The translations under genes were made by a program, and so were the position numbers. Shown piece after piece: positions 14,861 to 37,275 of a stretch of 64,000 bases of DNA; position 1 is the first letter of the stretch; each line of letters opens with the position of its first letter. The notes beneath the pieces were generated by a model that was not told the DNA's origin, made no database searches, and saw only the letters and a list, made by a program, of their open reading frames with translations. This stretch comes from Canna indica (lineage: Eukaryota > Streptophyta > Magnoliopsida > Zingiberales > Cannaceae): NCBI GenBank assembly GCA_034359265.1, contig CP136897.1:27088001-27152000 (forward strand), given 5' to 3'.

Positions 14861-15131
14861 TGTCTCATTGTAGTATGTTATTTTCGACATGAAGAACCTT
14901 TCTGTATGTACCTTAGTTGAATAGGTAGTTGAGACTAAGGTTGTAACTGGGATGGACCAGTGTATTTAGTCCATTGTGATTTGAAGGATATTTTCCTGCA
15001 TTCAAAATTTCATTGAGGATACCACTAGAATTCATCATTATAACTTCCCTTTTTACCTTCTCAAGTTCTTTAATCAACTTGGACTCTTTATCTTCCTTTT
15101 CTGCAATATGAGCTTGAAGATGTTGAATTTT

Positions 15132-19182: not shown

Positions 19183-20889
19183 ATCTCCCTCTTTTTGATG
19201 ATGACAAACATCCTTAAGAAAATATATACATTAAAGCATATAGGATATCAACTAAGGAATTTCTTCCCCTATCAACATGCATATCTATCTAATTAAACTC
19301 CCCCTATTTATATGCATGGATTTCCTATATTTTCCTCCCCTTTACCTATAGATTTCTCCCCCTTTTACCTATACTTCTCTCCCCCTTTTGACATCTATAT
19401 TTTCTCTATAGATTTCTCATAATTTTCTCCCCCTTTTGACATCAATCAAAAGGGGCAAGAAAGGTCAATTTAATCAAAGGGATGAAACACAATTATTATT
19501 TTTATGAAGTTGAGACTCTAAGGATTTTTCATGAAACGTGACAATCTCAACCATAGGGATGGAAAACAAGTATTTAACATGAAACAAGGTCATACATGAT
19601 ATGAAAATAGTGATAGATACAATTCAACACTATATCATGTATGCACTCAAGTCTTTTTCATGACATTCTTAGATTTCATTCAAACTTTCAAAATACCAAG
19701 ATATGGTTATTTAACTCATGTATATCAAGTTTGAAGTGAAACTAATGTCATTTAAATATGAACTTAGCATATTTTCATTTGAAATAAACATGAGAACATG
19801 AAAATGCTAAGTATCAAGTTTTGCTATCCACTCATGTTTTCTCATATTTAGGCATCTAGACATCAAACATGAGGAAATATAAGTCCATGAATCAAGTTTG
19901 AGCTTAAGATGAAATTTTTAATTCACTTTGTTGACTTAGCTCAACCTATACTTAAAGTTTTCAAAAATCAAACTTTTAAGTTTATACAAAGTCATATTTT
20001 TGACAAATATTTTTGAAACCAATTTGTTTGGACGAAAAGTTTTGATACCAATTATTGAATTGTCATTTGAAATGCATGTATCAAGTTTGAACTCAAAATG
20101 AATTTTCTAAGTTCATTTTTCATCCTATATTATTTTCAAATAAACAAATTGATCCTAGCTATCATCCAAAATATCAAAATCATTCATAGAAATGATTTTA
20201 CTTATGAAATTGTGTGAATGATATTAGAAATGGAATCCAAATAGTGTACATGAGTTTTTATATGAGGTTTTCGAAGAAATCAAAGTATATATAAAAAAAA
20301 TTTACTGATAAAACTAGATTTTTCAGTGAATGTGTAGTTTCAAGAATCATCTAAAAATAATTTTTCTATATTTTTCTAGAAATAACTAAAATTGATACAA
20401 ATTATAGGTTGAAATGGTATTTTTGTAATTTTCAGTTATCCTTAAAATTTGTTCAATTTTCATTCAAACTTTCATGACACCACATGATGGTCATGTAAAG
20501 AGTATATGTCAAGTTTGAAATGAAAATTATGTCCTTAAGTAAAGATATCAACCTAGCATGGTTTCATTCAAAACTAAACTAGTTTTTTTTTTATGAAACT
20601 TGCTAAGTTTCAATCTTAACATTTACTCATGATTTTTGAAACTTAAACCTATGGATACCTTTCATGAGTAAATCTAAACATGTTCCCCAAATATGAATTA
20701 AAAATGAGACCTTTAAGTCAACTTGGTTCAAAAGAGGCAAGCATGAATTAACCTCTATTGTCATTTTATCCATATCCATATGAATTTTTCACTCTAAATG
20801 AATGGAAATATGTCATACCTATTCATAAACATGTTTACGAAGTTTTGGACTTAAAATCAAGTGTCCAAGTCAATTTGTTGACTTGGGTC
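19183..20889 (-). mobile_element. SIRE-like copy 3, 3' non-coding internal part
   Basis: Long AT-rich DNA without ORFs. Its reverse complement matches the non-coding region before the 3' LTR of copy 1 (about 56150-57180): ATGCATATAAATAGGGGGAG-type words, GGGGAGAAAATTATGAG, and the repeated theme of ATGAGTAAA...AAATTTGAA. The match ends at about 20889, where viral sequence begins, and resumes at 37276 on the other side of the viral cluster. Confidence 0.8.
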
Positions 20890-20985
20890 AACTACTTGGC
20901 TCTCAAGTCTGTTCTGCACTTACAATGACAGAAGAGTAGAACTACTTGGCTCTCAAGTCTGTTCTGCACCTTCATACTAAGACTC

Positions 20986-20993
20986 TATTTATA
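20986..20993 (-). promoter_or_regulatory. TATA box of miniature replicon, second promoter copy
   Basis: The same TATAAATA and flanking block, 1785 bp from the copy at 22771. Its downstream sequence stops at 20890 where the SIRE-like copy 3 resumes, so this copy has no primer site. It marks one genome length. Confidence 0.8.
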
Positions 20994-21102
20994 GATTAAA
21001 GGAAGCTTCTCAGAGAAGCTCAATAATTGAGTGCGGGTGCTCATTGGGCCCCATCGTCCACTGAATTATTGGCTGTCTACAGTTGAGATGCATCCTTGAC
21101 AC

Positions 21103-21168
21103 AGACGGGACGAACTAGTACCCGTCTTTACAAGACACGTCGGGTAGTAGTACAATTATTACCCGACA
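21103..21168 (-). other. twin hairpins in the 3' region, unit 1
   Basis: Two adjacent inverted repeats: AGACGGG (21103-21109) with CCCGTCT (21122-21128), and GTCGGGTA (21140-21147) with TACCCGAC (21161-21168). The other unit carries the same pair at 22884-22952, with a paired change in the second stem. Confidence 0.75.
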
Positions 21169-21419
21169 CATAGAATAATAAACAGTGCAAAGGTGAAGGT
21201 GCCCATGTGATGGTGGGGACCTTCTAATAATGGAGGCTTCGTCAGCGTCCTTCCTTGCACCAAACGGTAGCAAACCTGCAAAAGGCAAAATTAATTTACA
21301 GGATAACTGTGGTAATTTGTTTCGGCGGTTTTACAACTTCCGCTCTTGAAGCCGTTGTTAATTTTTAGTCTGGGATGGGAAATCTCTCAGACGTTCTACG
21401 GCTTCTTTAGTACGTAGAT

Positions 21420-22322
21420 TTATCCTCCTGGGTCATATACAGTTGGAATCTGCCTGGCTGGGTATTTTCCCTTCCTCAGGGCTTCTTGATCCAGCCAATT
21501 TTCCGGTTCTGGGATAGGAATTTTGAAATTTTTCCCAGAACTCCCCTCACCTTCTTCAAAAAAGAATGGTTCCATCCATTCTTTACTTGAATAGGTGTCC
21601 TCCCACATCAGGGGCGGACACAGGTGAGTGCGAAGGATAGCCTCGTCCTTCGCGTACGAGCACTCCGGCTGCTCGTGGATGGTCATTGCGGGTAACAGGG
21701 TTGCCATGTCTTCGTCTTCCTCGGGGCGGTCCTCAGTTGGAACAGGATATAAATTTTTAAAATTTAAACCCCGAAAATCTTCTGCGGTTGTGGGATGGTC
21801 GTCCTTTGCAGGGTCAGGACATAAATTTTGCTCCCCGACTTCCGAAGCAAAGAGATCAATCCACTTAATCTCTTCTTCCTCATCGTCGCATACGTCCCAC
21901 CGAGGGGGTAAGTCCTCGCGCTCAGCTCGAAAAGTCATCCCGAGCGTCATGATATGTCCGACGACTCCTGGGTCGTCCTCTGCGTTTAGCTCGTAGTCAT
22001 CATCCCAGCTGCATACCGCCATGAGGGCTAGATCCCTCCTAGATCTTCTTTCATGGGAACAGGAGCAATTCGGCTCCGAGCCGATTTTTGCAAGCTGCAA
22101 GATGACCTGCATATCCTCATCGAGGTCATCGTAGAAATCATCCCATGCGAGACTGGTAGAGAGTCCGTCTACTACTTCTACCTTCCTCTCCATCTTCATG
22201 TATTTCGAAGTGGATAAATAGACGCGCTCTGGTTTAATCTCTTCTAGATCTTTCAAAGAAATTCTTCTCCTTGCAGTCTTTAGGCCGAATCTTAGTCGAT
22301 TCCTCAATCGAACTATTAGAAC
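21420..22322 (-). CDS. single long ORF of the miniature replicon (acidic P3-middle-like protein)
   Basis: Open from just after the in-frame TAA near 22325 to the TAG at 21420, about 300 codons without a stop. The first in-frame ATG is residue 37 of the stretch counted from a TTG at 22307 (context KYMKMERKVEVV). The protein is strongly acidic. It holds LALMAVCSWDDD and LPPRWDVCDDEEEE, which correspond to LMMTCQWDDSEE and DSQPRWDTSEES in the full virus P3 (36455-36640), and EWMEPFFFEEGEG, matching NGWNPFFLTREGKEG there. It ends in KYPARQIPTVYDPGG. So it is the segment between movement and coat domains, kept alone. Function unknown. It could be a fragment, or a protein under selection, since the frame is intact. 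It may be reached by frameshift or reinitiation from the short upstream ORF. Confidence 0.7.
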   Translation of the reverse strand, partial: VLIVRLRNRLRFGLKTARRRISLKDLEEIKPERVYLSTSKYMKMERKVEVVDGLSTSLAWDDFYDDLDEDMQVILQLAKIGSEPNCSCSHERRSRRDLALMAVCSWDDDYELNAEDDPGVVGHIMTLGMTFRAEREDLPPRWDVCDDEEEEIKWIDLFASEVGEQNLCPDPAKDDHPTTAEDFRGLNFKNLYPVPTEDRPEEDEDMATLLPAMTIHEQPECSYAKDEAILRTHLCPPLMWEDTYSSKEWMEPFFFEEGEGSSGKNFKIPIPEPENWLDQEALRKGKYPARQIPTVYDPGG

Positions 22323-22368
22323 TCTTTAATCTTTCACTTGGGTGCCTTCTCAGAATTACGAACGTCAT
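22234..22368 (-). CDS. short leader ORF of the miniature replicon (44 codons)
   Basis: ATG at 22368-22366 (context ACCATGA) to TAA at 22236-22234. It overlaps the start of the long ORF in another frame. The N-terminal MTFVILRRHP is matched in the full virus leader near 34965-34990, where the same frame reads TFVILRRHLD and then stops. Three of the seven shared codons compared (Ile, Leu, Arg) differ only synonymously, which suggests that the peptide itself was selected. It may be an ORF1 relic or a translated leader sORF. Confidence 0.5.
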   Translation of the reverse strand: MTFVILRRHPSERLKSSNSSIEESTKIRPKDCKEKNFFERSRRD

Positions 22369-22557
22369 GGTACTTTTTCCTCCCCTTGAGTACTTTTTCC
22401 CTCACTTTATCACCTACTCTGAGTACACGTCTTCCAAGCTTCCGATCTCAAGCTCTCAAGATCGATGAAGAACGAACGAAATGAACAGCCTCTCGACTAA
22501 CAAATTAAGAATTTGTGTGGGACTACCAAGATCATACGAAGAAATAAGGAACACAAG

Positions 22558-22569
22558 GCTCTGATACCA
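22558..22569 (-). promoter_or_regulatory. Met-tRNA primer-binding site of the miniature replicon
   Basis: The reverse strand reads TGGTATCAGAGC, complementary to the 3' end of initiator-Met tRNA, as in caulimovirids and many LTR elements. It lies about 209 bp downstream of the TATA box at 22778-22771. In the full virus the same spacing is about 201 bp (34607 to 34808). Confidence 0.9.
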
Positions 22570-22770
22570 AAAGGAAATTAACGGATAATTAACGCGCGTC
22601 GCTCGATTTCGACTACAGGCTACGAAGAACACTGAGTCGAAATGAGAAGTGGAAATATATTTTCGAAATATGATGGAGGAAAATATATTGAAATGGTGGA
22701 AGGATTACAATGGCAGAAGAGTAGAACTACTTGGCTCTCAAGTCTGTTCTGCACCTTCATACTAAGACTC

Positions 22771-22778
22771 TATTTATA
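22771..22778 (-). promoter_or_regulatory. TATA box of miniature replicon, upstream promoter copy
   Basis: TATAAATA on the reverse strand, preceded by a conserved block (GCACCCGCACTCAATTATTG and GAAGCTT) that also precedes the TATA box of the full virus (34560-34600: GCACCCGCACTAAATTATTA). Drives the complete unit to its left. Confidence 0.8.
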
Positions 22779-22883
22779 GACTAAAGGAAGCTTCCCGAAG
22801 AAGCTCAATAATTGAGTGCGGGTGCTCATTGGGCCCCATCGTCCACTGAATTATTGGCTTTCCACAAGTGGGATGCGTCCTTG

Positions 22884-22952
22884 ACACAGACGGGACGAAC
22901 TGTACCCGTCTTTACAAGACACGTCGGGCCAGTAGTACAATAATTGCCCGAC
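22884..22952 (-). other. twin hairpins in the 3' region, unit 2
   Basis: Counterpart of 21103-21168. The second stem here is GTCGGGC (22923-22929) with GCCCGAC (22946-22952): the T-A pair of unit 1 is a C-G pair here, so both arms changed and pairing is kept. Confidence 0.75.
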
Positions 22953-23215
22953 ACAGAGAATAACTAACAGTGTAAAGCTAAAGGTGCCCATGTGATGGTG
23001 GGGACCTTCTTGATGGAGACGTCTCGATCCGTCTTCTCCTTCCTTGCACCAGACCGTAAGAAAACTTGCAAAATCAAACTTAATTTACAGGATAACTGTG
23101 GTAATTTGTTAAGGCGGTTTTACCACTTCCGCCACTGCTGAAGCCGTTTAATTTTTCAAATTAGTCCGGGATGGGAAATCTTCCGGACATTCATCGGCTT
23201 CTTCCATGGGCAGAT

Positions 23216-23742
23216 TCATCCTCCTGGGTCATATACAGTTGGAATCTGCCTGGCTGGGTATTTTCCCTTCCTCAGGGCTTCTTCATCCAGCCAATTTTCC
23301 GGTTCTGGGATAGGAATTTCAAAATTTTTCCCAGAACTCCCCTCACCATCTTCGAAAAAGAATGGTTCCACCCACTCTTTACTCGAATAATTGTCCTCCC
23401 ATGTCAGGGGCGGACACTCGAGATCCAGGTGAGTGCGAAGGGCATCCTCGTCCTTCGAGTAGGAGCAGTAGGAGCACTCCGACTGCTCATAGATCAGCAT
23501 GGCGGGTTGCAGGAATGCCATGTCTTTGTCTTCCTCGGGGCGGTCCACAGGACACAAATATTTAAAATCTTGGCCCCGGTCGTCTTCTGCGGCTCTGGGA
23601 TGGTCAGAATCCGGACTAAAATTTTCAAAATTTTGGCCCAAGTTGCGGATGATCTCATCATTATCATCGTATTCGTCCCACTTCGGGGGCGAATCTTCGA
23701 GCTCAACGCCGAGGACGACCAAGGAGTCATCGGTCGCCTCAT
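23216..23742 (-). pseudogene. second, 5'-truncated copy of the miniature replicon ORF
   Basis: Open from the head-to-head junction near 23742 to the stop at 23216. It matches the C-terminal 60 percent of the ORF at 21420: SPPKWDEYDDNDE against LPPRWDVCDDEEEE, then SSKEWVEPFFFEDGEG, and an identical KYPARQIPTVYDPGG end. The frame has no stop. Differences between the two copies are moderate and often conservative. Confidence 0.75.
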
Positions 23743-24792
23743 GAAGAACATAACAGAGCATACAATGACTTAGAGAGACTAACGTGTAACAACGTAAAAG
23801 ACCTCTTTGAGTACATTAATGATTACAAGGTCCTAGCTGCTAAATCAGGAAGGATGTACGTATCTCCTGAATTATCTTAGAAGTTTTTCCGAAAAATGCC
23901 ACCAATCATTGGCAAAGAAATAGAACTAGCATACATGGAAAAACATCTAGGAAATACATTAGGAGTATTTCCTAGAATACATTTCACATATCAATATTTG
24001 GAAGAACAGTGCAAAAGAGCAGCATTTCAGAGAAGTCTGAAAGACCTTACAATTTGCAAAAAGATCCCAGTACCCGGTTACTACAAGAAGGAAAAGAAGT
24101 ATGGCCTAAGGAAGGCCAAAACCTATAAAGGTAAACCCCATGATACACATATCCGCATATTCAAAAGAAAGCATTTTGACAAGGTCAGAAAGTGCAAATG
24201 TTTTATTTGCGGAGAAGAAGGACACTTTGCCCGAGAATGCAACAGAAAACAAGGTAATATAGCTAGGGCAGCCATAGTAGAAAACCTTGACTTATCAAAC
24301 AACTGGGACGTTGTCTCTGTTGAACAGAACGAGCCAGATAGCGATGCTATATGCTCTTTCTCTGAAGGTGAATCAGGGATGGCACAATCACTTACAAATG
24401 AACTTAAAGACCTGTCATACGAGACTGCCTTCGTAATTATTAAGGAAGAACCAGAACCTTATACATGGAGAATGCAAGTCAGATTGCCTGTGGAAATGAC
24501 AGAATGTATCCACAAATGGGAGGATAACAACCCTGAAATAACCAAAGGTTGTGAAAAGTGCACTTACTGCAAGGAACCCACAAACCCCAATATGAGAGCA
24601 CACTGTAGGATTTGCCTACTAACTGTCTGCCCTATGTGCACTAGGTTCAATTTGGGTAGAAAAATAGTCATTCAGAAAGCCACCTTTTTGCCTTATGACG
24701 ACAAGGATTCCCTAATAAAGGAGTTGTTAGAATACACAAGATACCTACTGGCAGAGAACAAAACACTTAAAGATGAAATTGATGAACTATGA
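23743..24792 (+). pseudogene. viral P3: coat-protein region with zinc knuckle
   Basis: A frame enters at the junction, hits TAG at 23878-23880, and is open again to TGA at 24790-24792 (a second stop, TAG, at 24799). It carries capsid-region blocks (IPVPGYY, KYGLRKAKTYKGKPHDTH). The zinc knuckle CKCFICGEEGHFAREC lies at about 24193-24240 (CXCX2CX4HX4C). A second Cys cluster (CEKCTYCKEP, then CRICLLTVCPMC) lies at about 24553-24642, a badnavirus/tungrovirus hallmark. The capsid region packages viral DNA in intact relatives. The N-terminal start is inside P3, so no separate start codon is expected. Confidence 0.88.
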
Positions 24793-24801
24793 CTAAGCTA
24801 G

Positions 24802-25380
24802 GATCTGGAAGACCTTGAGGAAAAATTTGAAGGTCTTACACTTGACAAATCAGAAGAAGTAAGAATTTTGAAAGGAAAATTCCCTGTGATAAATGAAGGC
24901 ACTAGTGAAGCACCTACACAGAAAGATGTAGTTTTTAAAGAGGCTGTGAATTCCATATCCGAAGAAATGGAATTATACTCCACAGTAATACCTGAGATAA
25001 AGAAAGGAAGAAGGATCCTTAACAGGTTATACAATATGGAACTGATAATAGATATCCCTGGAATACAGAATTTCAAAATACAGGCCATATTGGACACAGG
25101 GGCAACAATATGCTGTATAGATCAGGATGCAGTTCCATCTGAAGCATTGGAGCCAAGTGCCTACCCAACTTTAATCAACGGAGTTAATTCTCAACAAATG
25201 GCAAGGCTAAAACTCAAAAATGGACAGATGTCCATTGAAGAGAACAAATTCAGAATCCTTTTTACTTATGCCTTCCCAATGGGAAAAAGGGACGGAATTC
25301 AGATGTTAATCGGTTGTAACTTCATCCGGGCCATGCAAGGAAGGGGTCCAAATAGAAGAGCAAATAGTCACATTTTATAA
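24802..25380 (+). pseudogene. viral P3: aspartic protease region
   Basis: Same frame resumes after the stops. A charged linker is followed by the retropepsin-type active site LDTGA, with its Asp codon at 25093-25095, and by the block IGCNFIRAM. The frame ends at 25380 because of a one-base shift near 25345: the next frame takes over and leads into RT. In intact relatives this enzyme cuts the polyprotein. Confidence 0.85.
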
Positions 25381-26744
25381 GAATGTTACAACGATTACTA
25401 CGAGGATTGACACAGAAATAGCAGCACCAGCCGCAATTGAAGAACTAAACCTCTCAGAAGACGAGTACCTAGAGGTCAAAAGAGCCGTAACCTATGACCA
25501 CTGTGAAGAGTCAAAATGGTTCAAAAAGAAGTTTAGTCCCCTGCTGGAAAGACTGAAGGAGCAAGGGTATATAGGAGAAAACCCTGTCCAACATTGGGCC
25601 AAGAACCAAGTAACCTGCAAGCTTGATATAATTAATCCTGACCTGACAATTCAGGATAAGCCACTCAAGCATGTTACGCCACTCATGAAGGATCAATTTG
25701 ACAGACACGTCAAAGCATTACTAAAGATCGGAGTAATTAGGCCCAGTACAAGCAGGCACAAGACTATGGCAATAATGGTGAATTCGGGTACCAGCATAGA
25801 CCCGATTACAAAGAAAGAGGTTAAGGGAAAAGAACGAATGGTGTTCAATTATAAAACCTTGAATGACAATACCCATAAAGACCAGTATAGTCTTCCGGGT
25901 ATAAATACCATTCTAAAGAGGATAGGAAACAGTAAAATCTTTTCTAAGTTCGACCTCAAGAGTGGCTTTCACCAAGTAACCATGGATGAAGAATCAATAC
26001 CCTGGACAGCCTTTATAGTACCAGGAGGATTGTATGAATGGCTAGTAATGCCATTCGGCTTGAAAAATGCCCCAGCCATCTTTCAGAGGAAAATGGACAA
26101 ATGTTTCCAAGGGACAGAGGACTACATAGCAGTATACATTGATGATATACTGATATTCTCTGAAAATGAAGAGCAACATGCCAAACATCTGAAAAGCATG
26201 TTGGATATTTGTGAGAAATGGGGATTGGTCCTATCCCCTTCAAAGATGAAGATAGCAACAAGGGAGATTGAATTCCTAGGCGCCATTATTGGGAATAATA
26301 AGATCAAGCTATAGCCCCATATAATCAAAAAGATAATCAATTTTGATGAGGAACAGCTTAAGAGCAAGACCGGCCTTAGGACCTCGCTAGGCATTCTGAA
26401 TTATGCCAGATCTTATATTCCAAATTTAGGCACCATCCTTGGGCCATTGTATTCGAAAATAAGCCCGCATGGAGATAAAAGAATCAAACAGTCTGATCAG
26501 CAGCTGATAGCAAAGATCAAAGCTTTAGTCCAAGATCTCCCAGACCTGGAATTACCCCCACCAAATGCATATATAATCCTAGAAACTGATGGATGTATGG
26601 AAGGATGGGGAGGGATATGCAAGTGGAAGAACAAAAAGAATGATCCAAGAAGCACAAAAAGAGTATGTGCTTATGCCAGTGGAAAATTCCCTGTCATAAA
26701 ATCAACCATTGATGCAGAGATCCATGCGTGTATGGAAACACTAA
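25345..26744 (+). pseudogene. viral P3: reverse transcriptase and first part of RNase H
   Basis: After the frameshift the frame is open to TAG at 26312-26314 and continues beyond it to the transposon at 26745. RT blocks include FDLKSGFHQV, WLVMPFGLKNAPAIFQRKMD and the catalytic box YIDDIL (26135-26152), then SPSKMKIA and EFLGAIIGN. RNase H begins with ILETDGCMEGWGG (about 26575) and reaches the DAEIHA block just before the transposon. In intact relatives it converts pregenomic RNA to DNA. Here it is broken by a stop and by the 6.7-kb insertion. Confidence 0.92.
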
Positions 26745-26745
26745 G

Positions 26746-28558
26746 GGCCCGTTTGTTTCGTTAAAAAACGGGGGACTGGACTGGATTTCGGCTCTTGTCC
26801 CCCGTTTGTTTTGCAAAAATGAGTAGGGACAGGATTTTAAATCCTGTTCGGGACAGGATTTTGAGCTCTTTTGGTGTACCGAGAAAATTCTCGGTACACC
26901 GATTTGGAGCGGAGGACTTTGAGGCAAAAAGACATCATTGCCCTCGACTAAACACGGGTCTTCCGCCTCAAGCCCTAGCCGTCTTCGCCCCCTTGTCTCT
27001 CGCTCTCGCACCCTCGTCTCTCGCCCTCTGTCGTTCGCGTCTTCGCCTGTCGTCCGTGTTCGCGTCTTCGTCGTCTCCGTCCAGGTAACTACTCTCGCCT
27101 CCTCTCCCCGATCTCCCTCCTCTCTCTCTCTGATCTCCATCCGCATCTCTCGCCCCTATCTCTGCATCTCTCTGCTCTCCATCTGCATCTCTCGCCCCTA
27201 TTCTCGCCTCATTGTTGATTTTGCCTCTCATCTGGACTTAAAATTGTGTTCTTTTACATGCTGTTGATGTGTGCTCTCCATCTGCATCTCTCGCCCCTAT
27301 TCTTTTTTTCAGTATATTTTTTAATTTGCTCGTTCTGCATCTCTCATCTGGACTTAAAATTGTCTGATTGCACCGTCTGTATATATTCTCACCTCTTTTA
27401 CATGCTGTTGATGTGTGCTGTGAGAGTTATCAGACTAATTAGGTCGCCTCTTTCTACATAACCATAATTTGATTAGATCGTTCTAATATCCAGGCTAATA
27501 GGTTTAAAACACTAGGCTCATTTCATGTAGTTTCTAATATTGCAATAGACTATCTTGAATTGCTTTTGGTGTTTCTAATATTGCAATTGATTATCTTGAT
27601 GTGTGCTGTGTCTTGAATTGCTTTTCATTTGTTTCAACTTTCAAGTGTTGCCTGTGCCCTTCATAGGATTATGAATTCTATTTACACTGTTGATACTACA
27701 AACACAACATTATACATACAGGTAAAGTGTATAGGTGTATGCACACATACGTTTCTCTGAACTCAGCAGGCAATGAACAACGACTAAAATGTACCTTAAT
27801 TTTAATGGCCATTAGTTAATTATAAACCAAACTATCCTAACTCTCCAAAGTGCATACTCAAATGGATCTTATCCTTTACAGGTAAATTGTAGAATTAAAC
27901 ACTAATATCAGTTTGTCTGAACTCAGCACACAGAGGACTTTGACCAATTTTATGAACCATTTAAGAGGACATGACTTGGTTTGGAGCATTGCCACATTGA
28001 GCTATAACTTAGAGGTTAACTTACGGCTACACTACTCAATATATCACCAAGGCTATTGGTATTTTGTGAGCTTGTACAGGAGAATTATCTGAGATTTTAT
28101 TTGTAATTATCTGTTATTCTTGTTTTCTTTCTCCCAACTATCTATTGCATAAACTATGATTTTTTTTGTTCTGGTCAGTCTATCATCTTTTCAAGTGTTC
28201 TATTCAACATTTAACAGCATTAAGTTCTATAAGTTCTATAAGTTCAACTCAAACAAAACTGCATGTCCAAGGTAGGTTTTATAAGTTCTTGGTGGGGAAA
28301 GGAACTAGGCACAGCAGAACACAAGGCATGCTTGTAGCTAGTCTTCTTGCCAAAGGAGAATTGCCCTGCCATTCCACATTTCTATGTTGTAGCTAGTCTT
28401 CTTGCCAAAGAAGACTTCCAATATAATTATAGAAGTTAACTATTTTCCTATTCCAATCTATGGTAAAATTTGGAAGTATTTTCAATCTTCTATTGTGCAT
28501 AATACATGTATCATTAATTTGTTTTTTCTGATTTTTTGTTTATTGTTTTTAGTGAATA
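26746..28558. other. Harbinger 5' non-coding region
   Basis: No gene recognised. 26960-27310 is pyrimidine-rich with repeated CATCTGCATCTCTCGCCCCTATTCT words (several copies, 27130-27300), which create spurious open frames. 28330-28415 has a small direct duplication (GTAGCTAGTCTTCTTGCCAAAG). Probably promoter and 5' UTR, possibly with an intron. Confidence 0.6.
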
Positions 28559-29907
28559 ATGGATGAGTTGTCATTCATGTTATACGCTGCTACACGAAGA
28601 ATGTATATCCATTTGCTTGCTATGTCTGCGGTTGGATATTTTTTTGTAAAATTTATAATGCGTGATGAGTATGAGAGGAGAGCGGTAGATGATAGAACTC
28701 TTGTTAGAAATATGACTCGCATAGATGTTTTGGATTCCATTATCAGGGAAAGCGATAATAATTGTATTTGGGAGTTGAGAATGTCTAGAAATGCTTTTGC
28801 AAGACTTTGTGAGCTATTGATTGTTCGGGGTGGGTTAACGAGTGATGGGAGGGTGCCCGTGGAGGAGCAAGTTGCTATTTTTGTAAACATTCTAGCCCAT
28901 CACACAAAAAATAGAACAATTCGAGTTAGGTTCAAAAGATCGGGAGAAACCATTAGTAGATATTGCCATCATGTGTTACATGCTGTTGTTAGATTGCATG
29001 ATGTCTTATTAGCAAAGCCAGAACCTGTGCCACAAGATTGCACCGATGAGAGATGGAAGTGGTTCAAGGTAAGCTATATACCATTGATATCATAGTTGTT
29101 ATTGTATTTAGAACGTCAATTAATATTCGGTTTAAATTTTGTGTAGGGGTGTTTAGGAGCATTAGATGGTACATATATAGCTGTTACACCACCTGCTACA
29201 GACAGACCTAGATACAGGACAAGGAAAGGAGGTCTTGCAACAAATGTGTTAGGAGTATGTACACCAGAAATGAATTTCATATATGTGTTATCAGGCTGGG
29301 AGGGGTCAGCTTCTGATTCTAGAGTGCTGCGTGATGCAGTTACGAGACCCAATGGATTGAACGTCCCAGTTGGTATGTCATACATAAACTTTATTATAAT
29401 AATTGACTTACCATAATAAGAACTAAAATTCGTATAATAATTTTGTCGATAGGTAACTACTATCTTGTGGATGGTGGATACACAAATGGGGATGGATTTC
29501 TTGCACCATATCGCGGTAGACGATATCATATTCAAGAGTGGGGCAATAGTCGAAGAACAACCCAAAATCGTGAGGAACTGTTTAACTACAGACATGCACG
29601 AGCAAGAAATGTAATCGAGAGATGTTTTGGTCTTTTAAAGAAAAGATGGGCTATTCTTCAATCACCATCCTTTTATCCGATAAAAACCCAATGCCGTATT
29701 ATTCTTGCTTGTGGTTTACTTCATAACTTTATTCGGATGAACATGGAAATTGATCCGTTGGAGTTTGCTACCATCATAGATGATGAACTACCAATAGGAG
29801 AAGAACCTATCAACATAATCAGCACCGTTGAGCCTAGTAATGAATGGACTCAATCGAGAGACAACTTAGCACAACAAATGTGGGACGAATGGAGAGCAAG
29901 AAATTGA
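28559..29907 (+). CDS. PIF/Harbinger DDE transposase (three exons)
   Basis: Probable exons 28559-29068, 29147-29372 and 29453-29907, with GT..AG introns of 78 and 80 bp (GTAAGC...TGTAG and GTATGT...GATAG). Together they give 396 residues in one frame with no stop. An N-terminal helical region contains [14 protein letters not shown]. The catalytic domain (DDE_4 type) follows: first Asp in [10 protein letters not shown] (29165-29167), second in [11 protein letters not shown] (29470-29472), and the Glu in [16 protein letters not shown]. It ends with a HNFIR motif and an acidic tail with MWDEWRARN. It cuts and joins element ends together with the Myb-like partner. All key residues are present, so it may be functional. 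Confidence 0.9.
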
Positions 29908-31654
29908 ATAAATGTACTTGTGTACTTTTATTATGTACTTGTGTACTTTTATTATGGTTTGGTTATGTAATTCAATGTAGTTTTATATTGAATCAGTTAT
30001 GATTATGTACTTTTTAATGATTTGGATTTTAATGAAATCAATGTACTTTTCTAGTTAATTAGTTTGCCAATGAAACAATACAATTTAAATCATGGCTGTT
30101 AGAAATATGTTTAAATCAGTCAATTCATCTTGTTGTTGCTAAGCTCCTTCATTGTTCAGTCAATTCATCTTTATATTGTTGTTGTCAATTCATCTTTATC
30201 CTTCATTGTTCTCATTGTTAAGGTAACATGTGATCTTTCTCTGGAAATAATATATTGTTGTTGCTTCTTGCATTCACTAAGCTCCAAAGCTGAGTTGCAA
30301 AGGTCTTCTTAGTCGGCCTAGCCACCGTAGATTACAAGATTGAGGGTCCTGAATTTTTTATTGCTGTTGATGTAGCCTGTATATGCATGTTCACACACAT
30401 ATATTTGCCATGTTGATTTTGTCTGGTTTTCAGCCAGATATTGAATAATCTTAGTTAAACATTCTTTGTCATCTGTTCTTGTTGATGTAGACCTACTGGC
30501 CTGACCATATAAAATTTGTTTTATAAGCTTATGTTAATCTGTAATCAGCTGCACATAAGGTGGTACATGTGCGACTAATGCTGGACAGACAGACAATTCT
30601 GTGTTCACCACCCAGCTAACTGGTTGGGAGCTATATATATATTCTGTATTATTCTGTAGGATTGTTTCTCTTCTCTCTTTCTCCTGTCTGAAATAAACTG
30701 CTTTGGTAGTTGCTATGACAACTAAAGATGTGAATGAGGCTACCAGGACAAGTTTCTCAAATGTTGCTAACTGCTTTGCTTTTTGAAAGATGAAGACACA
30801 CATATTAGTAATTTCTGAAATAAACTGATTGCTAACTGCTTTGCTTTTTGAAAGATGAAGACACACATATTAGTAATTTCTGAAATAAACTGATTGCTAA
30901 CTGCTTTGCTTTTTGAAAGAGTTCAAATGTTGTTATGCTTTTTCATTCATTGTCAATTTATAGAGTACATTGTATCATTTCCCATGTTGATCTATTAAAG
31001 GCTGTCAATGTATCAGTATAATGATTAAATGAAAAAAAAATCATTTATTACATGCAAATCTCCAAGGTTCCCAATGATATTCTATTTTAAGACATTATCA
31101 GTTTACTGATACTGATCAGTATCAGTATCATCATTAGGTTCTTCATATTGCATTGATATGAATTGAAGAACCTAATGACTGAGATTTTTACTCTGTAAAT
31201 ATTTGGATTATACATTTGCAGATTGAAAAGGTGTCACACATTTAGGAAATTTGAGATTGGACATTCCTATTTACTGGACTTTAACTAAGTAGTGGGGTAT
31301 GCAGATGTTTTAGCCAAGGATGAAAAGTATGCGTAGCTCATCTTGCCCATGCCATGCAGAGGCTGAAAATTAAATGCTACATTGTTTCTATATATTATGG
31401 TTTCTTGTATAAGGTAATAAGATAATATATTACCTTTTTCTTTCCTGCAATTGCCAGGATCAGTATCAGTTATACTAATATAATTGAACGCAAATTATAG
31501 AGCAGTATAGAGCAGATTCAATGTCTTGAACGCAAAGGCAAATTAAGTGGGTCTATAGTTAGCTGAAAAATCCCAGCTCAAAAGTATGGAACATTCTTCC
31601 ATTTCCATGACTATTTTTAGTTGTTAATGGTTTGGTTATGTCTTATTTGTAGTC
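29908..31654. other. Harbinger region between its two genes
   Basis: AT-rich and non-coding. A 65-bp tandem repeat (GCTTTGCTTTTTGAAAGATG... unit) occurs about 2.5 times at 30770-30920. Around 31100-31130 is a run of TATCAGT/ACTGATA palindromic words. A CTTGTGTACTTTTATTATG word is duplicated at 29918-29955. Confidence 0.6.
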
Positions 31655-32629
31655 ATGGAAGTTCAAAAAAGAGGTAGACGCTCATGGACACAAGAGGAAG
31701 ATGAAACTTTGTTGACTATTTTAGAAGAATTGGTTGTGGAGGGACATAGGGGGGAGAATGACACTTTTAAAGCAGGAACTCATGAGGAAGCTTTGAAAAG
31801 AATGTTGATACGAGTTCCTGGCATTAACTTAACAGTGCAACAGATAGTTAACAAAATGAAAAGATGATCACTTAAACTATCTGAAGCACTTGATATGATG
31901 AACACAAGCGGATTTGGATGGGACGATGTGCGTAAGTGTGTGGTGGTTGACAATCCACAAGTGTTGGAGGAATATTTGAAGGTAATTATTTAATATTGAT
32001 TTTTTATTGTCAATAGAAGCATGTATTATTTAATATTATTGCATCATTGATAATACTTGTATTTTTTCCTTGTGTAACAGAAGCATCCAAAATCCGCAAA
32101 CCATGCGAATAAAGAATTTAAAGAGTTTGAAAGACTGCATGTCATCTTTGGAAAGGATCGTGCCACTGGCCACGGTGCAGAGACACCAGCTGATGTGATA
32201 GAAACACAATCCTTACAACCTGAATGGGAAAATATGATGGAAACACAATCCTCACAACAACCTGAATCTCCAATGTCAAGAAGGCAAGAATCTCCAATCT
32301 CGAACATTGGTAGTCAATCCGAAGGAAGTGAGCCAAAAAAAAAGCGAAGCCGCATGAATGAAGTGGCAGATAAATTCATTGAGGTGTGGGAAACTCAAAT
32401 GAGTTCGGCTGCTCGTGATATGCACACAGTGGCTATTGAGATGACAAAAATGAGAGAGCATATGGAGATGTCAACGTTGGTTGATGAAGTGCATAAATTG
32501 GGAATAACAGAGATGGAGGAAATGAATGTACTGAAAAAATTTGCAGAAAATACTCACTACGCGACAATTTTCATGAGGATGGATGAAAGTAGAAGGTTGA
32601 CTTTTGTGAAGTCAATTATGGGGATGTAG
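31655..32629 (+). pseudogene. Harbinger Myb/SANT-like DNA-binding protein, one stop
   Basis: Exons 31655-31981 and 32081-32629 with a GT..AG intron of 99 bp (GTAATT...AACAG). They total 291 residues but for a TGA at 31865-31867, where relatives would most likely have Trp. The N-terminal RRSWTQEEDETLL is a Myb/SANT-like trihelix start. Further on are FGWDDVRKCVVVD, a nuclear-type KKKRSR signal and a C-terminal helical region. In Harbinger elements this partner imports and positions the transposase. One base change separates it from an open frame. Confidence 0.85.
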
Positions 32630-33450
32630 TTGAACACTTTGTTATTTTGGAATTGTGGTAGATAAATATTTTATCATTTTGTAGTTGGAGGTGTTCCAAA
32701 TTTTATTTTTGAATTGTGTTTACTGTAGTTGGAGGTGTTCCAAATTTTGAGAAGTGTACTTACTTCTTTTTGAATTGTGGTAGAGTCCTGTACTTACTAC
32801 TTACAACTTTAAAATTTTTAATGAAGAGAAGTGTCTACTTTAGCATGTTTGTGTTAGGCTTTCACTTGTTTATTATGTGTGAAGTGTTTTTTTTCCAGAT
32901 TCTGTGTGAAGTTATATGTTAGGCTTTCACTTGTTTATTCTGTTTATTCTGTGTGAAGTGTTTTTTTTCCAGATTTTGGTAAGTTAGGAAATGGTAATAA
33001 TAGACCTCGTGTGATGCTATATGTGCTCCATTCTGGTAATGACTTGTTAAATGTATTTCTTGGAACGGTATATAAATTATTTGATTACTTCTTCCACCAT
33101 ATGACCTGTACAAGCATCACTACCACAATTATTTGATTTTGAGCATCACCATTCAGATTCACGCTCAATAATTCTCAATAAAATGTAATTATTTTTTAAA
33201 ATTTAAGACTAAGTAGGAAGACTTTTATGTTTAAAATTAAATTTGAGCATTAAAAATTTATAAGGGTATTTTGGTCATATTGTCTTGTACAGGACTCTAT
33301 TTTAACGAACCAAACGCAAGACGGGACTGGATATCGTGTCCTGTTCTTAGCGAACCAAACACGGTATAACTACTATCCCAGGACACCTGATGTCCTGTCC
33401 TTGTCCCTGTCTGGTGTCCTGTGATGAGCAGTTTGCGAACCAAACGGGCC
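32630..33450. other. Harbinger 3' non-coding region
   Basis: Non-coding. Small direct duplications: AGTTGGAGGTGTTCCAAATTTT near 32683 and 32727, and TTAGGCTTTCACTTGTTTATT near 32855 and 32918. Ends in the right terminal inverted repeat with subterminal repeats. Confidence 0.6.
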
Positions 33451-33451
33451 C

Positions 33452-33836
33452 TAAGGGCTCTAAAAATTCACTACCTGGATAAGAATGAAATAACCCTTAG
33501 GACTGATTGCCAAGCAATCATCAGTTTCTACAACAAGTCTGCACAAAACAAACCTTCGAGGGTAAGATGGATCAACTTTGTTGATTATGTAACTGGAACA
33601 TGAGTTCAGATTAACTTTGAACACATTGAAGGCAAAATGAACACTCTAGCAGATTCGCTATCAAGACTTACAGCGAACCTTGTTCAGACAAGTGAACCAA
33701 TAAATATTGAAAAGTACTTAGCAGATTTGGAGGTAGCACTGAAGGAAGCAGAACAGGCTCCTCCTGAAGTAATTCAACAACTATGTAAAGCTATCAGCAA
33801 GATCGATAGCTTACTAGTCAGCAGCAACCCGCAGTG
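33452..33836 (+). pseudogene. viral P3: end of RNase H and C-terminal tail
   Basis: Continuation of the RNase H after the transposon, starting with the second TAA copy. It includes TLRTDCQAIISFYNK with the third catalytic Asp, a TGA at 33601-33603, then HIEGKMNTLADSLSRL and a Glu-rich tail to TGA at 33834-33836. The flanking codons are continuous across the transposon if one TAA is counted once. Confidence 0.85.
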
Positions 33837-33919
33837 AAGGAAGCAAAAGGGGAGTGGTAAGCCTTAAAACATCCACATTTGTTAATAGTTTGTTAATTTT
33901 GCAGGTAACTATTAGAAAG

Positions 33920-34330
33920 ATGATTCTTGACAAGCTCAAGAGCTTATTAGCAAGCCATAACGAAGCTACACCACAAACTCGCAAGGACATCAACACTGCC
34001 CAACACTGGGCAGTACTAAGTAGTGCATCAGGCTTAGAAGATCTGGAAAGACTAACCGGCGATCTCCTATTCAACTATCCAAGAACCATGAATAAAAATC
34101 ACCAACTACTGCAAGAAGTTCACCGAATACATCAAGCCCAAACCATGAAGGCAATCGATGAAGTAGGAAAACTCCTTGCCATAGCCTACCTTCAAAAGGC
34201 TAGGCTTGAACAGAGCGCCACAAAAGACAATTGGGCATCTGACGCCCTAGGACCAGTAGAAAATCACATCAAAAATCTGGTCCAATGTCATACAGCACTA
34301 TGCAGCAGCAAACAAAGTAACATCTACTGA
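33920..34330 (+). CDS. ORF downstream of viral P3 (ORF4-like, 136 aa)
   Basis: ATG at 33920 to TGA at 34328-34330, intact. In the same frame it is open upstream to 33854. Predicted mostly helical, with many Leu/Gln/His residues and no motif I recognise. Just before it, at about 33886-33904, is a clear 3' splice-site signature: a T-rich tract ending TTTTGCAG, followed by GTAAC. Among caulimovirids, rice tungro bacilliform virus expresses an ORF in this position from a spliced RNA whose donor is in the leader. Here a candidate donor CAAG/GTACTC occurs right after the primer site (about 34819-34826). The assignment is positional. No sequence homology is claimed. Confidence 0.5.
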   Translation: MILDKLKSLLASHNEATPQTRKDINTAQHWAVLSSASGLEDLERLTGDLLFNYPRTMNKNHQLLQEVHRIHQAQTMKAIDEVGKLLAIAYLQKARLEQSATKDNWASDALGPVENHIKNLVQCHTALCSSKQSNIY

Positions 34331-34819
34331 GCTGGAAGATAAGCACGATGTCCCATCAGCAAGCTGGAAGATAAGCAAGATGTCCCATCAGCATTATTAA
34401 GGGGACGAGCACCAAAGGAAAGAATCTATCTTTATTAGTGTAAAGTCTATGTCATGAGTTGTAAAGGAGTCCATATGAGTTGTAAAGATGGTGCACTCAT
34501 GAGTCAGAAAGAATCTACTGACAAAAGCTATAACTTAGTGGACGATGGGGCCCCATGAGCACCCGCACTAAATTATTAAGCTTCTTCAGGAAGATTCCAA
34601 GTCGCCTATATAAGGCACCAAGTTAGAAGTTGCAGAACACACTTGAGACCCAAGGAGTTCTACTCTTTCCTTGTATTGTCCACTACTCTGATAATATAAG
34701 CTTTCAAGCCCCCTTTTCACAACCTTTGTTCTTTGCATTACCTTATTTCAAACCAGTGTTCTGCGTAGCCCGTGTTTGATTTCGAGAAGAGGCTTTCCGC
34801 CCTACTTTGGTATCAGAGC
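34331..34819 (+). promoter_or_regulatory. viral intergenic promoter and primer site
   Basis: Contains two tandem copies of AGCTGGAAGATAAGCA.GATG (34330-34368), the block GGACGATGGGGCCC shared with the miniature replicon, TATATAAG at 34607-34614 and the primer site TGGTATCAGAGC at 34808-34819. This is the pregenomic RNA promoter region and the start of minus-strand DNA synthesis in intact relatives. Confidence 0.85.
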
Positions 34820-35084
34820 AAGGTACTCTTGTTATTTTAAATCTGTTGCTAGCCTTATACTGCAGATTTGATTTGAATCTAGACTGTTTATCTAGGAGAC
34901 GTGTACTTAAGGTAGGCGATAAAGAAGGGAAAAGTACTCAGGGAGAGGAAAAATTCCCGTTACATTCGTAATCTTAAGAAGACACCTAGATTAAGCAATC
35001 AAGATTTACTTCATTAAAAACAGTATATTAGCATGAGACAGCTTTAGAAGACTAAGAACTACTAAAACTCTAAATACCTCTTTC
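34820..35084 (+). other. viral leader, no intact ORF1
   Basis: 265 bp between primer site and first small ORF, alignable with the leader of the miniature replicon (shared GGAGACGTGTACT, GTAGGCGATAAAG and TTCGTAAT words). The frame that would end in the TGA overlapping the next ATG has stops at 35053-35055 and 35071-35073, so a badnavirus-style ORF1 is missing or decayed. It carries the short conserved TFVILRRH peptide frame. Confidence 0.6.
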
Positions 35085-35477
35085 ATGAGTGAGTGGCGCC
35101 TAACAGCAGCCAGTACCAATTACGTACAAGCATTGAAAGCTATAGAATCTCTTGGACAACCATCTGAAGGATTTGTTAAACCCTCTGAAGCTTCACAGAA
35201 GACTCTGTTTAGACAGTTGAATACTTTGATTCAACTAACAGTCAAAATCAAAGAAGATCTTGATGATCTGAAGGAGACTGTTAAAGCCTTGAAAGCAGCT
35301 AAGAAAGAAGTCCCCACAGACGACCTCTCTAATTCTATAGAAAGTCTACAAAAAGACTTACAAAAACTCAGTCTAGGAGAGCCATCTGCCCCAAAAGTTC
35401 CCAAAATCCAAGGGAAACTTTTTGTGTTCAAAAACTCAAAGGACATCTTTAACGAAGAGAAAGAAAAGGCAAAATGA
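35085..35477 (+). CDS. viral small ORF before P3 (coiled-coil, ORF2-like)
   Basis: ATG at 35085 to TGA at 35475-35477, 130 codons, intact. Its stop overlaps the P3 start in an ATGA (35474-35477), the arrangement typical of badnaviruses. The middle (LTVKIKEDLDDLKETVKALK) is a heptad-like coiled coil and the C-terminus is Lys-rich, as in badnaviral ORF2 / virion-associated proteins, which bind nucleic acid and associate with virions. No lesion seen in this ORF. Confidence 0.75.
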   Translation: MSEWRLTAASTNYVQALKAIESLGQPSEGFVKPSEASQKTLFRQLNTLIQLTVKIKEDLDDLKETVKALKAAKKEVPTDDLSNSIESLQKDLQKLSLGEPSAPKVPKIQGKLFVFKNSKDIFNEEKEKAK

Positions 35478-36946
35478 CTTCAACAAGAACTGAAGTAATC
35501 CCACCAAGACCCTCAATCTCTGGAAGAGATTCCAACCTTCACGCTACAATAGAAGATCAAATTCGTGGATATCGAATTGGTAGCCGACTACGCCACGAGG
35601 CACAAAGAAGGATGCCGAACAGAGGCATAAATAGTTTCAGAAGAAGCCTCGAATCTCAAATGAATCCGGATGCCGAGTTAACAGTATCCCAATACAGAAG
35701 AGCTCAACAAGTACCTGCTGAAACACTCTATCCAGCAGGATGGTCAGAGAGACAACACAGAGTATATCAACACTACTCTGATGAGAGGATCTTAGTCACT
35801 GAAGGGGCTCAAGTTGAGTTACCCTTCATCACAGACCAAAGCTATAACCTTCTGGTGCAGGAAGGTTTACAACATTTACATATAGGCATGGTGATGATTC
35901 GCCTACATACCCTTCACAGGCGAAGCGCAGGAGTGAACACCCTGGTATTATTAAGAGATACCAGATGGATGGATGACAGAGCTGTTATCAGCTCTATGGA
36001 AATTGACCTTACAACAGGCACCCAACTTGCCTACACAGCGCCAGACATGACCCTAAGTATTCATGATTTTAGGGAACATATCCAGCTTGTCCTACAAACT
36101 CATGGTTATGAAGGATGGCAAGGAGGTGAAAGTAACCTCTTACTCTCCCGATCACTTATTGGGAGATTATCGAATAGCAGCCACACCAACTTTCGGTATA
36201 ACGTTCAGCACGTTGCCGACCACTTAGCCAGCAGAGGAATCAGAGCAATTCCTGGACAAGTAAGAACAACAGCAAGCTTACAAGGAAGACGGTGGATAAT
36301 AAGACCAGCAGTCTTAGCCTCTACACAAAATCCACAATCAGCCAGCATCAGATCAAGAACTGATGGTACACTCGCAGTACAATTTACCAACTATACCAAC
36401 ACCACAGACACAGTGAGATCTGAAAACCCAGACGAAGACATGGTGCATGAAGCAGCCCTAATGATGACGTGCCAATGGGACGACTCTGAAGAAATATTTG
36501 ATGAAGTCCCTGAAGAAGACTCAGATGACGAAAACGAAGATCTACAAGTTCTTCGACACCTTTCAGCGCTTCAAATTGATGAAGACGTTGACGATTCCCA
36601 ACCACGATGGGATACGTCAGAAGAATCTGATGAAGAAAATGAAAATGGGTGGAACCCATTTTTCTTGACACGGGAGGGGAAGGAAGGAGAAGAAGAAACC
36701 CAACCCCAATCCGAAACTGCATATGCTGCTGAAATGGAATATCCTATGATCAGGCAGCTCGTTTCCAGAATTAACAACAACAACACAGAAACAACATTTT
36801 CAACAGCAGAATCCTCACTTACCAGAATACCAACTGAGCCTATTATGGGTCCCGCAATGTACCCTCCAGGAACAAGGCAACCAACTATTAATGTCCCAAC
36901 AATTCAGTCCAGACTGAATAATATCAGAGGAGGATATGCTAAATAG
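35474..36946 (+). pseudogene. viral P3 N-terminal part: movement domain and acidic region
   Basis: ATG at 35474, open for 490 codons to TAG at 36944-36946. Residues about 95-290 form the 30K-type movement domain (LPFITDQSYNLL, then HIGMVMIRLHTLHRRS, and a D-rich strand region with LLRDTRWMDDRAV). After it comes the acidic stretch with LMMTCQWDDSEE and QPRWDTSEES that the miniature replicon also has. In intact relatives this part forms tubules at plasmodesmata. Truncated here by the stop and then by the end of the viral segment. Confidence 0.85.
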
Positions 36947-37275
36947 CATGATGAAAGGTTTAATCTACCTTCGGCACAAGCCAGCCAAGGTGTGATACTA
37001 GTCCTACCGGAAAATATAGGACTATACAGTGATGTGATATCCCGATGGGAATCAATCACCCTGAACCTGATAAACGAGAGAAATTGGACAGATAATAAGT
37101 CCAAAATGTGTTATATTGAAAACCTGCTTGGCGAAACAGAAAAGAAGACCTGGATCCAATGGAGAATGGCCTTTCCCAATGAGTATGATGAACTCACAGC
37201 TATAGCAGATGACCCGCAGAATGTACTATCCCAGATAAGGAGAATGTTTCTGTTGGAAGACCATCAAACTAGTTT
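36947..37275 (+). pseudogene. viral P3 segment after the stop, up to the integration edge
   Basis: Same frame as the P3 N-terminal part, continuing with LPSAQASQGVILVLP and a W..IT.N.I region, then breaking off near 37275 where SIRE-like sequence resumes. The next expected residues are those found at 23743, which defines the permutation point. Confidence 0.75.

Follow-up and report, generated by a model that had tools for sequence, protein, structure and literature searches.

The window analysed here, a 64,000-nucleotide stretch of the Canna indica genome (C8:27088001-27152000; genome of 752.9 Mb in 9 contigs), contains a tandemly repeated unit of 1.8 kb that is very probably a miniature helper-dependent pararetroviral replicon, belonging to a long-lived lineage that arose through deletion in a badnavirus-like caulimovirid infecting Canna. 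The unit possesses the cis elements of such a virus and a single open reading frame (ORF). It occurs in many copies and in tandem arrays, its copies fall into distinct clades, its ORF has been under selection, array ends accumulate at the primer site, and in the window the units form a compound insertion with a larger virus of the probable helper kind. Dependence on a helper is presumed, as the genes for replication and coat are missing from the unit.

Structure of the repeated unit

The direct repeat occupies 20893-23706 of the minus strand. Its start-to-start offsets of 1785-1814 bases confirm the period of about 1.79 kb reported in an initial annotation of this DNA. The repeat arms (20920-21800 and 22705-23605) were 84.4% identical over 917 columns, and a longer alignment of the two window copies gave 86.8% identity over 1017 aligned columns. 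The unit is oriented along the minus strand, opposite to the adjoining virus; the strand was absent from the initial annotation. The following features were assigned.

20995..22778, minus strand: complete unit, TATA to TATA, 1784 bp
22705..23706, minus strand: second unit, partial (intergenic region and 3' part of the ORF), from another unit clade
22778-22771, minus strand: TATA box TATAAATA of the complete unit; another at 20993-20986
22569-22558, minus strand: 12-mer TGGTATCAGAGC, which we take to be the caulimovirid Met-tRNA primer binding site
22373..22387, minus strand: polypurine tract AAGGGGAGGAAAAAG, inside the leader block common to unit and helper
21420..22199, minus strand: unit ORF, ATG to TAA, 259 codons, acidic, no Pfam family at E <= 1
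23216..23706, minus strand: C-terminal part of the ORF in the partial copy, same stop position with TGA instead of TAA
23696..23743, plus strand: inverted fragment of a unit ORF, 48 bases, joined at the palindrome GAGCTC (23699-23704), tblastx 11/16 amino acids

The complete unit is thus arranged as TATA box, leader with primer site and polypurine tract, single ORF, and an intergenic region reaching to the next TATA box, and motifs that would prime both DNA strands are present in its sequence. The primer site follows the TATA box at 209 bp, compared to 201 bp in the adjoining virus, which confirms by position the similar spacing noted earlier, and the polypurine tract lies 183 nt downstream of the primer site. 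The leader could be aligned over its full length with that of the adjoining virus, as had been claimed; BLAST matches were significant in two blocks, namely the promoter (82% identity over 139 positions) and the stretch around the polypurine tract (80% over 92). Across all helper stretches compared, identities were 80-87% for the promoter and 77-81% for the tract. The single open frame of about 300 codons described before comprises 301 codons from stop to stop and 259 from the first ATG, and P0001, a Canna relative of the unit ORF, starts at the same ATG. The second copy in the window ends inside the ORF near 23706. The predicted fold of the unit leader was not clearly better than those of shuffled sequences (z -1.66; 7 of 100 shuffles as good).

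Copies and tandem arrays across the genome

Genome searches with the parts of the unit demonstrated that it is more than a single-copy sequence. All copy counts are lower bounds, and ORF matches were grouped into clusters by hand. The leader had at least 44 genome matches (best 40 of 129 candidates scored), the ORF at least 110 (best 150 of 242) and the intergenic region at least 49 (best 40 of 923). At 75% identity or more, the ORF matches formed at least 15 clusters including that of the window, thus 14 others, some of which are fragments; here, C8:43.86/43.87 was counted as one cluster, C2:64.41 and C2:64.42 as two, and one match of 21 residues was excluded. The Canna protein P0001 is an exact match to the product encoded by the copy at C3:34.97 Mb. 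Among copies of the window's kind (lineage A), 16 contain both the leader end and the ORF start, and in all 16 these two directly adjoin each other. Coat and reverse transcriptase (RT) sequences between them, which would have pointed to a private deletion, were therefore found in none of these copies, and the absence of pol and coat from the unit stands. One further copy (L026) lacks the leader as well as the first 11 codons of the ORF and abuts helper movement/linker DNA.

Outside the window, unit-ORF clusters were tandem at five of the places fetched, with a spacing of mostly 1.74-1.81 kb. Altogether, 19 places were examined, and tandem spacing of 1.69-1.94 kb occurred at 8 of them; six of the 19 were stretches of less than 4 kb, and several did not have the length needed to reveal such spacing. 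The spacings in bp were as follows.

Window: 1785-1796
C3:34.97 Mb: 1788 and 1791; third copy 1694-1716
C6:1.0 Mb: 1768
C5:76.3 Mb: 1810-1811
C3:72.8 Mb: 1736
C9:38.8 Mb: 1757
C8:22.7 Mb: 1752-1761
C8:9.25 Mb: 1943
C1:9.70 Mb (beyond the 19 places): 1637 and 1625
C2:18.34 Mb (beyond the 19 places): 1656

Within lineage A, the distance from TATA box to primer site was 207-211 bp and that from primer site to polypurine tract mostly 182-185. A helper coding piece was located 500 bases or less away in 7 of 15 arrays (eight if the duplicate pair described below is counted twice), while none was found at the C3:34.97, C3:72.8 and C8:22.7 arrays within the 6.5-9.5 kb read.

Array ends at the primer site

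Among 19 3' ends of lineage-A arrays, eight fell within -5 to +12 of the start of the primer site, a stretch of 18 nt that represents 1% of the unit (P 7e-12). These ends are located at C3:34.97 (two), C8:43.87, C4:42.83, C3:72.8, C1:61.97, C6:68.53 and C2:64.42. Three further ends occurred at about -14, +21 and -35, and the remaining eight, including that of the window, were scattered. Ends were picked by hand and primer-site positions by eye, the split chains of L018 and L022 were taken as one end each, and thirteen short or helper-like fragments were excluded from the 19. When the excluded thirteen were restored as misses, 8 of 32 ends were at the site (P 9e-10). The end at C4:42.83 (L016) may be helper-derived; without it, 7 of 18 ends remained (P 3e-10). 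Counting four ends that belong to one clade only once gave 5 of 16 (P 4e-7), or 4 of 15 when L016 was omitted as well (P 1e-5). The harshest count, with the one-clade ends merged, L016 removed and the excluded fragments included, still yielded 4 of 28 (P 2e-4).

Discontinuities in caulimovirid DNA are located at priming sites (International Committee on Taxonomy of Viruses (ICTV) profile, PMC7660458), and array ends at the primer site would hence be expected if tRNA-primed unit DNA had been integrated. In one case (L017), the junction between a helper leader and a unit leader falls exactly on the primer site, as a template switch at this position would give. This case is no more than suggestive, also with regard to recombination with the partner, by which regulatory regions of non-autonomous pararetroviruses may be homogenised.

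The array ends also bear on the explanation that the unit is a chromosomal repeat or a non-autonomous element of the long terminal repeat (LTR) type, multiplied by the host or by a retrotransposon. The tandem arrangement would be in line with this, as would the array pair at C8:43.86/43.87 Mb (L014, L015), where a unit-plus-helper insertion lies in a segmental duplication with 500 of 500 flanking bases identical. Apart from this pair, no whole-flank match was obtained among 15 arrays compared; nine further pairs displayed partial matches of 40-267 bases at 68-91% identity, some of them helper pieces. However, the window array mixes copies of different clades, arrays adjoin broken helper pieces and end at the primer site, and unit and helper alike have the polypurine tract in the leader, downstream of the primer site. 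An LTR retrotransposon or terminal-repeat retrotransposon in miniature (TRIM), in which the tract would adjoin the 3' terminal repeat and each copy would have fixed termini and a target duplication, is likewise at odds with this tract position and with the variable array ends; target duplications were inspected for the window insertion only. We therefore regard multiplication as a chromosomal repeat or LTR-type element as very improbable. A short stretch (about 40-100 bases, 77-91% identity) is repeated just outside the L011, L018 and L019 arrays (C6:1.0, C9:38.8 and C8:22.7).

Distinct clades and selection on the ORF

In a codon tree of ten ORFs, the partial window copy grouped with the copy from C6:1.0 Mb, and the complete copy was placed apart. 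The protein tree concurred, with bootstrap values of 84 for the pair of partial copy and C6:1.0 copy and 98 for a clade of three. As the window copies belong to different unit clades, they did not originate from local duplication, and the array joins two unit variants that are older than the integration. By this result and the copies elsewhere in the genome, a private deletion within the adjoining virus followed by local duplication, which could have explained the promoter and leader common to both, was refuted; its probability is negligible. The initial annotation had also argued against a simple local deletion, and the different clades of the window copies and the many copies elsewhere bear this out.

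The comparison of dN/dS across copies that had been suggested there indicated purifying selection. Between the window copies, dN was 0.153 and dS 0.403, resulting in a dN/dS of 0.38 (bootstrap 0.25-0.64). Over ten copies, omega was 0.51 (lnL -3213.80, compared to -3229.09 at omega 1; 2 delta lnL 30.6; one uniform-rate model), and pairwise omega was below 1 in 45 of 45 pairs, with lineage-A ORFs diverging up to a dS of 0.56. The ten sequences, one of which is the partial window copy, had been picked for open frames; L010, L013b, L014, L015, L016 and L017, which are cut short or contain stops, were left out. The ORF was open from ATG to stop in 9 of 15 copies examined. In a neutral simulation of the window copies, 154 codons stayed open in 4% of the runs. 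All six gaps in the ORF between the window copies are multiples of three, and the frame keeps its alignment across all six; these gaps were taken from a protein alignment, which allows whole-codon gaps only, and the figure thus shows frame alignment and nothing more. Intergenic gaps were multiples of three in 2 of 9 cases (Fisher P 0.006 versus the ORF gaps), a value that is soft because the intergenic gaps were read by eye. Taken together, the unit ORF probably functioned as a gene during the divergence of the lineages.

The adjoining virus and the compound insertion

The units in the window are followed, beyond the inverted fragment of 48 bases, by a virus of the probable helper kind on the opposite strand, which is split by a transposon.

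20826..20892, no strand assigned: left flank, transposon sequence related to 56208-56145
23744..26744, plus strand: helper-type virus piece 1, coat part with CCHC, protease, RT and RNase H start, in broken frames; start set by eye
26745..33451, no strand assigned: DNA transposon inside the RNase H gene, carrying a DDE transposase ORF; TAA duplication and inverted ends both identified by eye
33452..37265, plus strand: helper-type virus piece 2, RNase H tail to coat start; the coat start was deduced from the order in L018
34607..34953, plus strand: helper TATA box TATATAA (34607), primer site with the same 12-mer as in the unit (34808-34819) and polypurine tract (34940-34953)

Piece 2 comprises, in this order, the RNase H tail, a small 3' ORF, the intergenic region, the leader, ORF2, the movement protein, an acidic linker and the coat start. 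The right flank continues the same transposon as the left one, by BLAST from 37295 and by eye from about 37266, and both flanks match neighbouring parts of one transposon copy (54413-56208), meeting at TCAA. This indicates that units and virus represent one compound insertion. The movement protein of the adjoining virus resembled that of Jujube mosaic-associated virus, which is filed in Badnavirus; the identity was 55%, with half of the query covered.

Virus sequences of this kind are abundant in Canna; a query with the RNase H tail gave at least 150 matches (best 150 of 1154 candidates scored), some of them in open frames of more than 1000 codons. In Zingiber officinale, relatives of the movement-protein ORF (P0017, P0037, P0051) are part of proteins that, by precomputed annotation, also contain a dUTPase domain (PF00692). 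The transposase-like ORF of the nested transposon at 26745-33451 matches DDE_Tnp_4, and the element presumably is of the PIF/Harbinger type. Remains of a copia-type retrotransposon (gag, zinc knuckle, pre-integrase) occur on the minus strand at 14141-16148.

Origin of the ORF

According to the initial annotation, the ORF corresponds only to the acidic stretch between the movement and coat domains. This assignment did not hold: similarity to that linker is weak (30% over 79 amino acids; for the unit ORF family and the linker of a relative, 34.7 bits compared to a shuffle maximum of 29.6, n=300), and it was set aside for a far better match to the C-terminal domain (CTD) behind RNase H of full-size relatives. 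P0001 was 47% identical to the CTD of the full-size copy L038 over 249 amino acids (E 4e-64), and 28-45% identical to those of L041, L045, L046, L048, L050, L015 and L017. In L015 and L017, the CTD ends in the motif LRKGKYPA, as in the unit ORF family, and in full-size relatives the CTD is followed by the small 3' ORF and the intergenic region. With the CTD as counterpart of the ORF, the unit equals a helper minus ORF2, movement, coat, protease, RT, RNase H and 3' ORF. No match to the unit ORF was obtained in the prokaryote contigs searched or in IMG/VR, where scans with the shared promoter and the movement-protein ORF were negative as well.

The helper in the window itself has no CTD, its frame stopping behind RNase H. 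A contiguous CTD-less junction of RNase H tail and 3' ORF, covering nearly the full query, was found at six other places.

CTD-less helper copies: C5:59676717, C9:13304994, C2:67455888, C5:56081428, C8:76414174, C8:49581412

These copies give some weight to the idea that the unit is a genome segment, namely the small component of a bipartite virus to which the CTD gene moved from the helper, so that CTD-less helpers need the unit. The CTD-less junction is present in the window, at C5:59.677 beside a unit of lineage B (described below) and at five more places (71-73%, nearly full query), and the purifying selection on the unit ORF is in agreement. On the other hand, CTD-bearing helpers, too, have units next to them or no more than a few kb away (L015 in the same stretch, L018 with L046, L037 with C2:64.425), no unit was near 5 of the 7 CTD-less places among the matches listed, and the unit encodes no other protein. 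We consider a bipartite genome segment unlikely, and it is the strongest competitor of a helper-dependent replicon.

Other miniature lineages

Apart from lineage A, to which the window belongs, miniature units of four other lineages were distinguished.

Lineage A: window
Lineage B: L043, L047, L052
Lineage C: L019
Lineage D: L020
Lineage E: L051

In L043 and L047, the ORF lies directly behind the leader block and is 39-45% identical to P0001, and L052, consisting of B-like pieces, is an array with a spacing of 1656 bp. The N-terminal part of the L019 ORF (spacing 1752) is about 40% identical to P0001; L020 (spacing 1943) has a C-terminal part in common with lineage C (65% over 66 amino acids). 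L051 (C1:9698000-9702500, spacing 1637) carries a different ORF with a WDD-rich stretch and scraps of the protease region (by tblastn) and the RT region (by eye). Its joining to these scraps indicates a separate, independent deletion to nearly the same size. The deep nodes of the protein tree across miniature lineages and helper domains were weakly supported.

The different internal deletion of L051, by which this size was reached more than once, would also suit the explanation that the units are recurrent defective genomes, arising anew by deletion in each infection as a repeated accident without a lineage of their own. For lineage A, this is contradicted by the leader-ORF joints common to 16 of 16 copies, by a 5' coding stretch and intergenic DNA that are missing from the helper stretches compared, and by copies that are up to dS 0.56 apart with omega still below 1; recurrent defects are thus improbable. 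The chances appear about even that Canna harbours fossils of a protein-coding satellite class of reverse-transcribing viruses, with at least five miniature lineages (tandem spacings of 1.63-1.94 kb where measured) that arose by more than one independent deletion, converged in size and on acidic proteins (WDD motifs in 4 of 5), and were copied in trans over long periods by tRNA-primed reverse transcription.

Proposed replication cycle

We propose that the unit has retained a single gene, which encodes an acidic protein, and otherwise only the parts required in cis (promoter, leader, primer site and polypurine tract). From circular unit DNA, host Pol II would produce an RNA of about 1.8 kb with terminal redundancy, which would be packaged and copied by the coat and RT of a co-infecting helper, presumably a virus of the adjoining kind, with Met-tRNA as primer. 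New unit circles would then return to the nucleus, and some may enter chromosomes by end joining, resulting in head-to-tail arrays, either alone or joined to helper DNA. The acidic protein might act together with coat or RT in packaging or assembly, a rather doubtful guess made because its homologue sits in the helper polyprotein and is acidic. The satellite-like, helper-dependent replicon put forward in the initial annotation is in accord with the arrays, selection, primer-site ends and co-insertion; its mobility and its dependence on helper RT and coat are presumed.

Several observations weigh against a long-lived helper-dependent replicon. No RNA, circle or virion of the unit was seen in this analysis of genome sequence. 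Eleven of the 19 array ends, including that of the window, lie outside the 18-nt stretch at the primer site, and the array flanks are not wholly distinct among the 15 arrays compared. Substitutions between the window copies were distributed over the codon positions as 26/19/35, which is no significant difference (P 0.09), and lineage A as a clade relative to helper domains and other miniature lineages received weak support (47.8/63). Canna was the only source of ORF homologues, and no further relative was revealed when the protein database was searched by profile, with the best 7989 candidates scored. For the 5' end of the ORF and for the intergenic sequence specific to the unit, the helper stretches compared offered no clear source, apart from one match of 53 bp. 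Finally, published partners share >90% or 99.3% of the intergenic region, whereas the unit blocks reach a lower identity of 77-87%; the true partner of the unit may be absent from the Canna helper copies that were read.

Comparison with known systems

Caulimoviridae have genomes of 7.1-9.8 kbp with 5-6 conserved protein domains (ICTV profile, PMC7660458); the unit, with 1784 bp and an ORF without Pfam family, is no full genome of this family. Non-autonomous and bipartite pararetroviruses as a kind are already known, and the statement of the initial annotation that such components occur in plants is established by two reports (Chen et al. 2017, PMC5491270; Geering et al. 2014, PMC4241990). In the former, the grass forms eRTBVL2, ePVCVL and ePVCVL2 are described as non-autonomous, multi-copy and keeping at least two of movement protein (MP), coat protein (CP), protease (PR) and RT/RNase H (RT/RH), and one pair of non-autonomous form and partner has 99.3% intergenic identity. 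The Canna unit resembles these in being multi-copy, lacking RT or coat, having regulatory sequence in common with a partner and presumably replicating in trans. It differs in that MP, CP, PR and RT/RH are all missing, in its size of 1.8 kb and in two common blocks of about 77-87% identity. Indispensable domains are missing from the unit, which yet occurs in many copies of consistent structure, and it has regulatory sequence in common with the helper kind (promoter 80-87%, tract 77-81%) and a compound insertion with it, though at an identity below that of published pairs.

Florendovirus components A and B (Geering et al. 2014, PMC4241990) measure 5.5-6.9 kb with conserved domains on both, and partners share >90% of the intergenic region. 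Here, the likeness lies in complementary components, compound insertions and a complete intergenic region on each. In contrast, the Canna component is of 1.8 kb with one small ORF, and its helpers occur with and without the corresponding domain: CTD-less helpers that would make up one proteome together with the unit exist, yet CTD-bearing helpers are also near units. In the portions available of the literature searched, covering non-autonomous, bipartite, satellite, helper-dependent, defective and subgenomic forms and Canna endogenous viruses, non-autonomous and bipartite pararetroviral genomes are only large ones, and neither a miniature caulimovirid replicon nor a pararetroviral replicon without movement, coat, protease or RT domain was found. 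No smaller non-autonomous kind is named in the accessible text of a review (PMC10377300), of CAULIFINDER (PMC9719215) or of a review of leaders (PMC5902531).

The Canna unit is an extreme new variant of the non-autonomous pararetroviruses. A replicon of 1.8 kb is a measure of how little a pararetroviral genome needs in cis, and it points to a route of viral colonisation of plant genomes that would escape scans based on RT, coat or movement domains. Promoter, primer site and polypurine tract follow one another as in the full-size, badnavirus-like Canna virus, the probable helper kind, but the unit has none of the MP, CP, PR, RT and RH domains of that virus. RNA viruses and single-stranded DNA viruses commonly have satellites. 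The protein-coding DNA satellites of geminiviruses are small, circular, helper-dependent DNAs with one gene and little helper sequence. The Canna unit would work alike as a one-gene, helper-dependent DNA, but these satellites are copied by rolling circle and not by reverse transcription. In Canna, the fossil record of a virus and of its probable hitch-hiker is preserved in one host.

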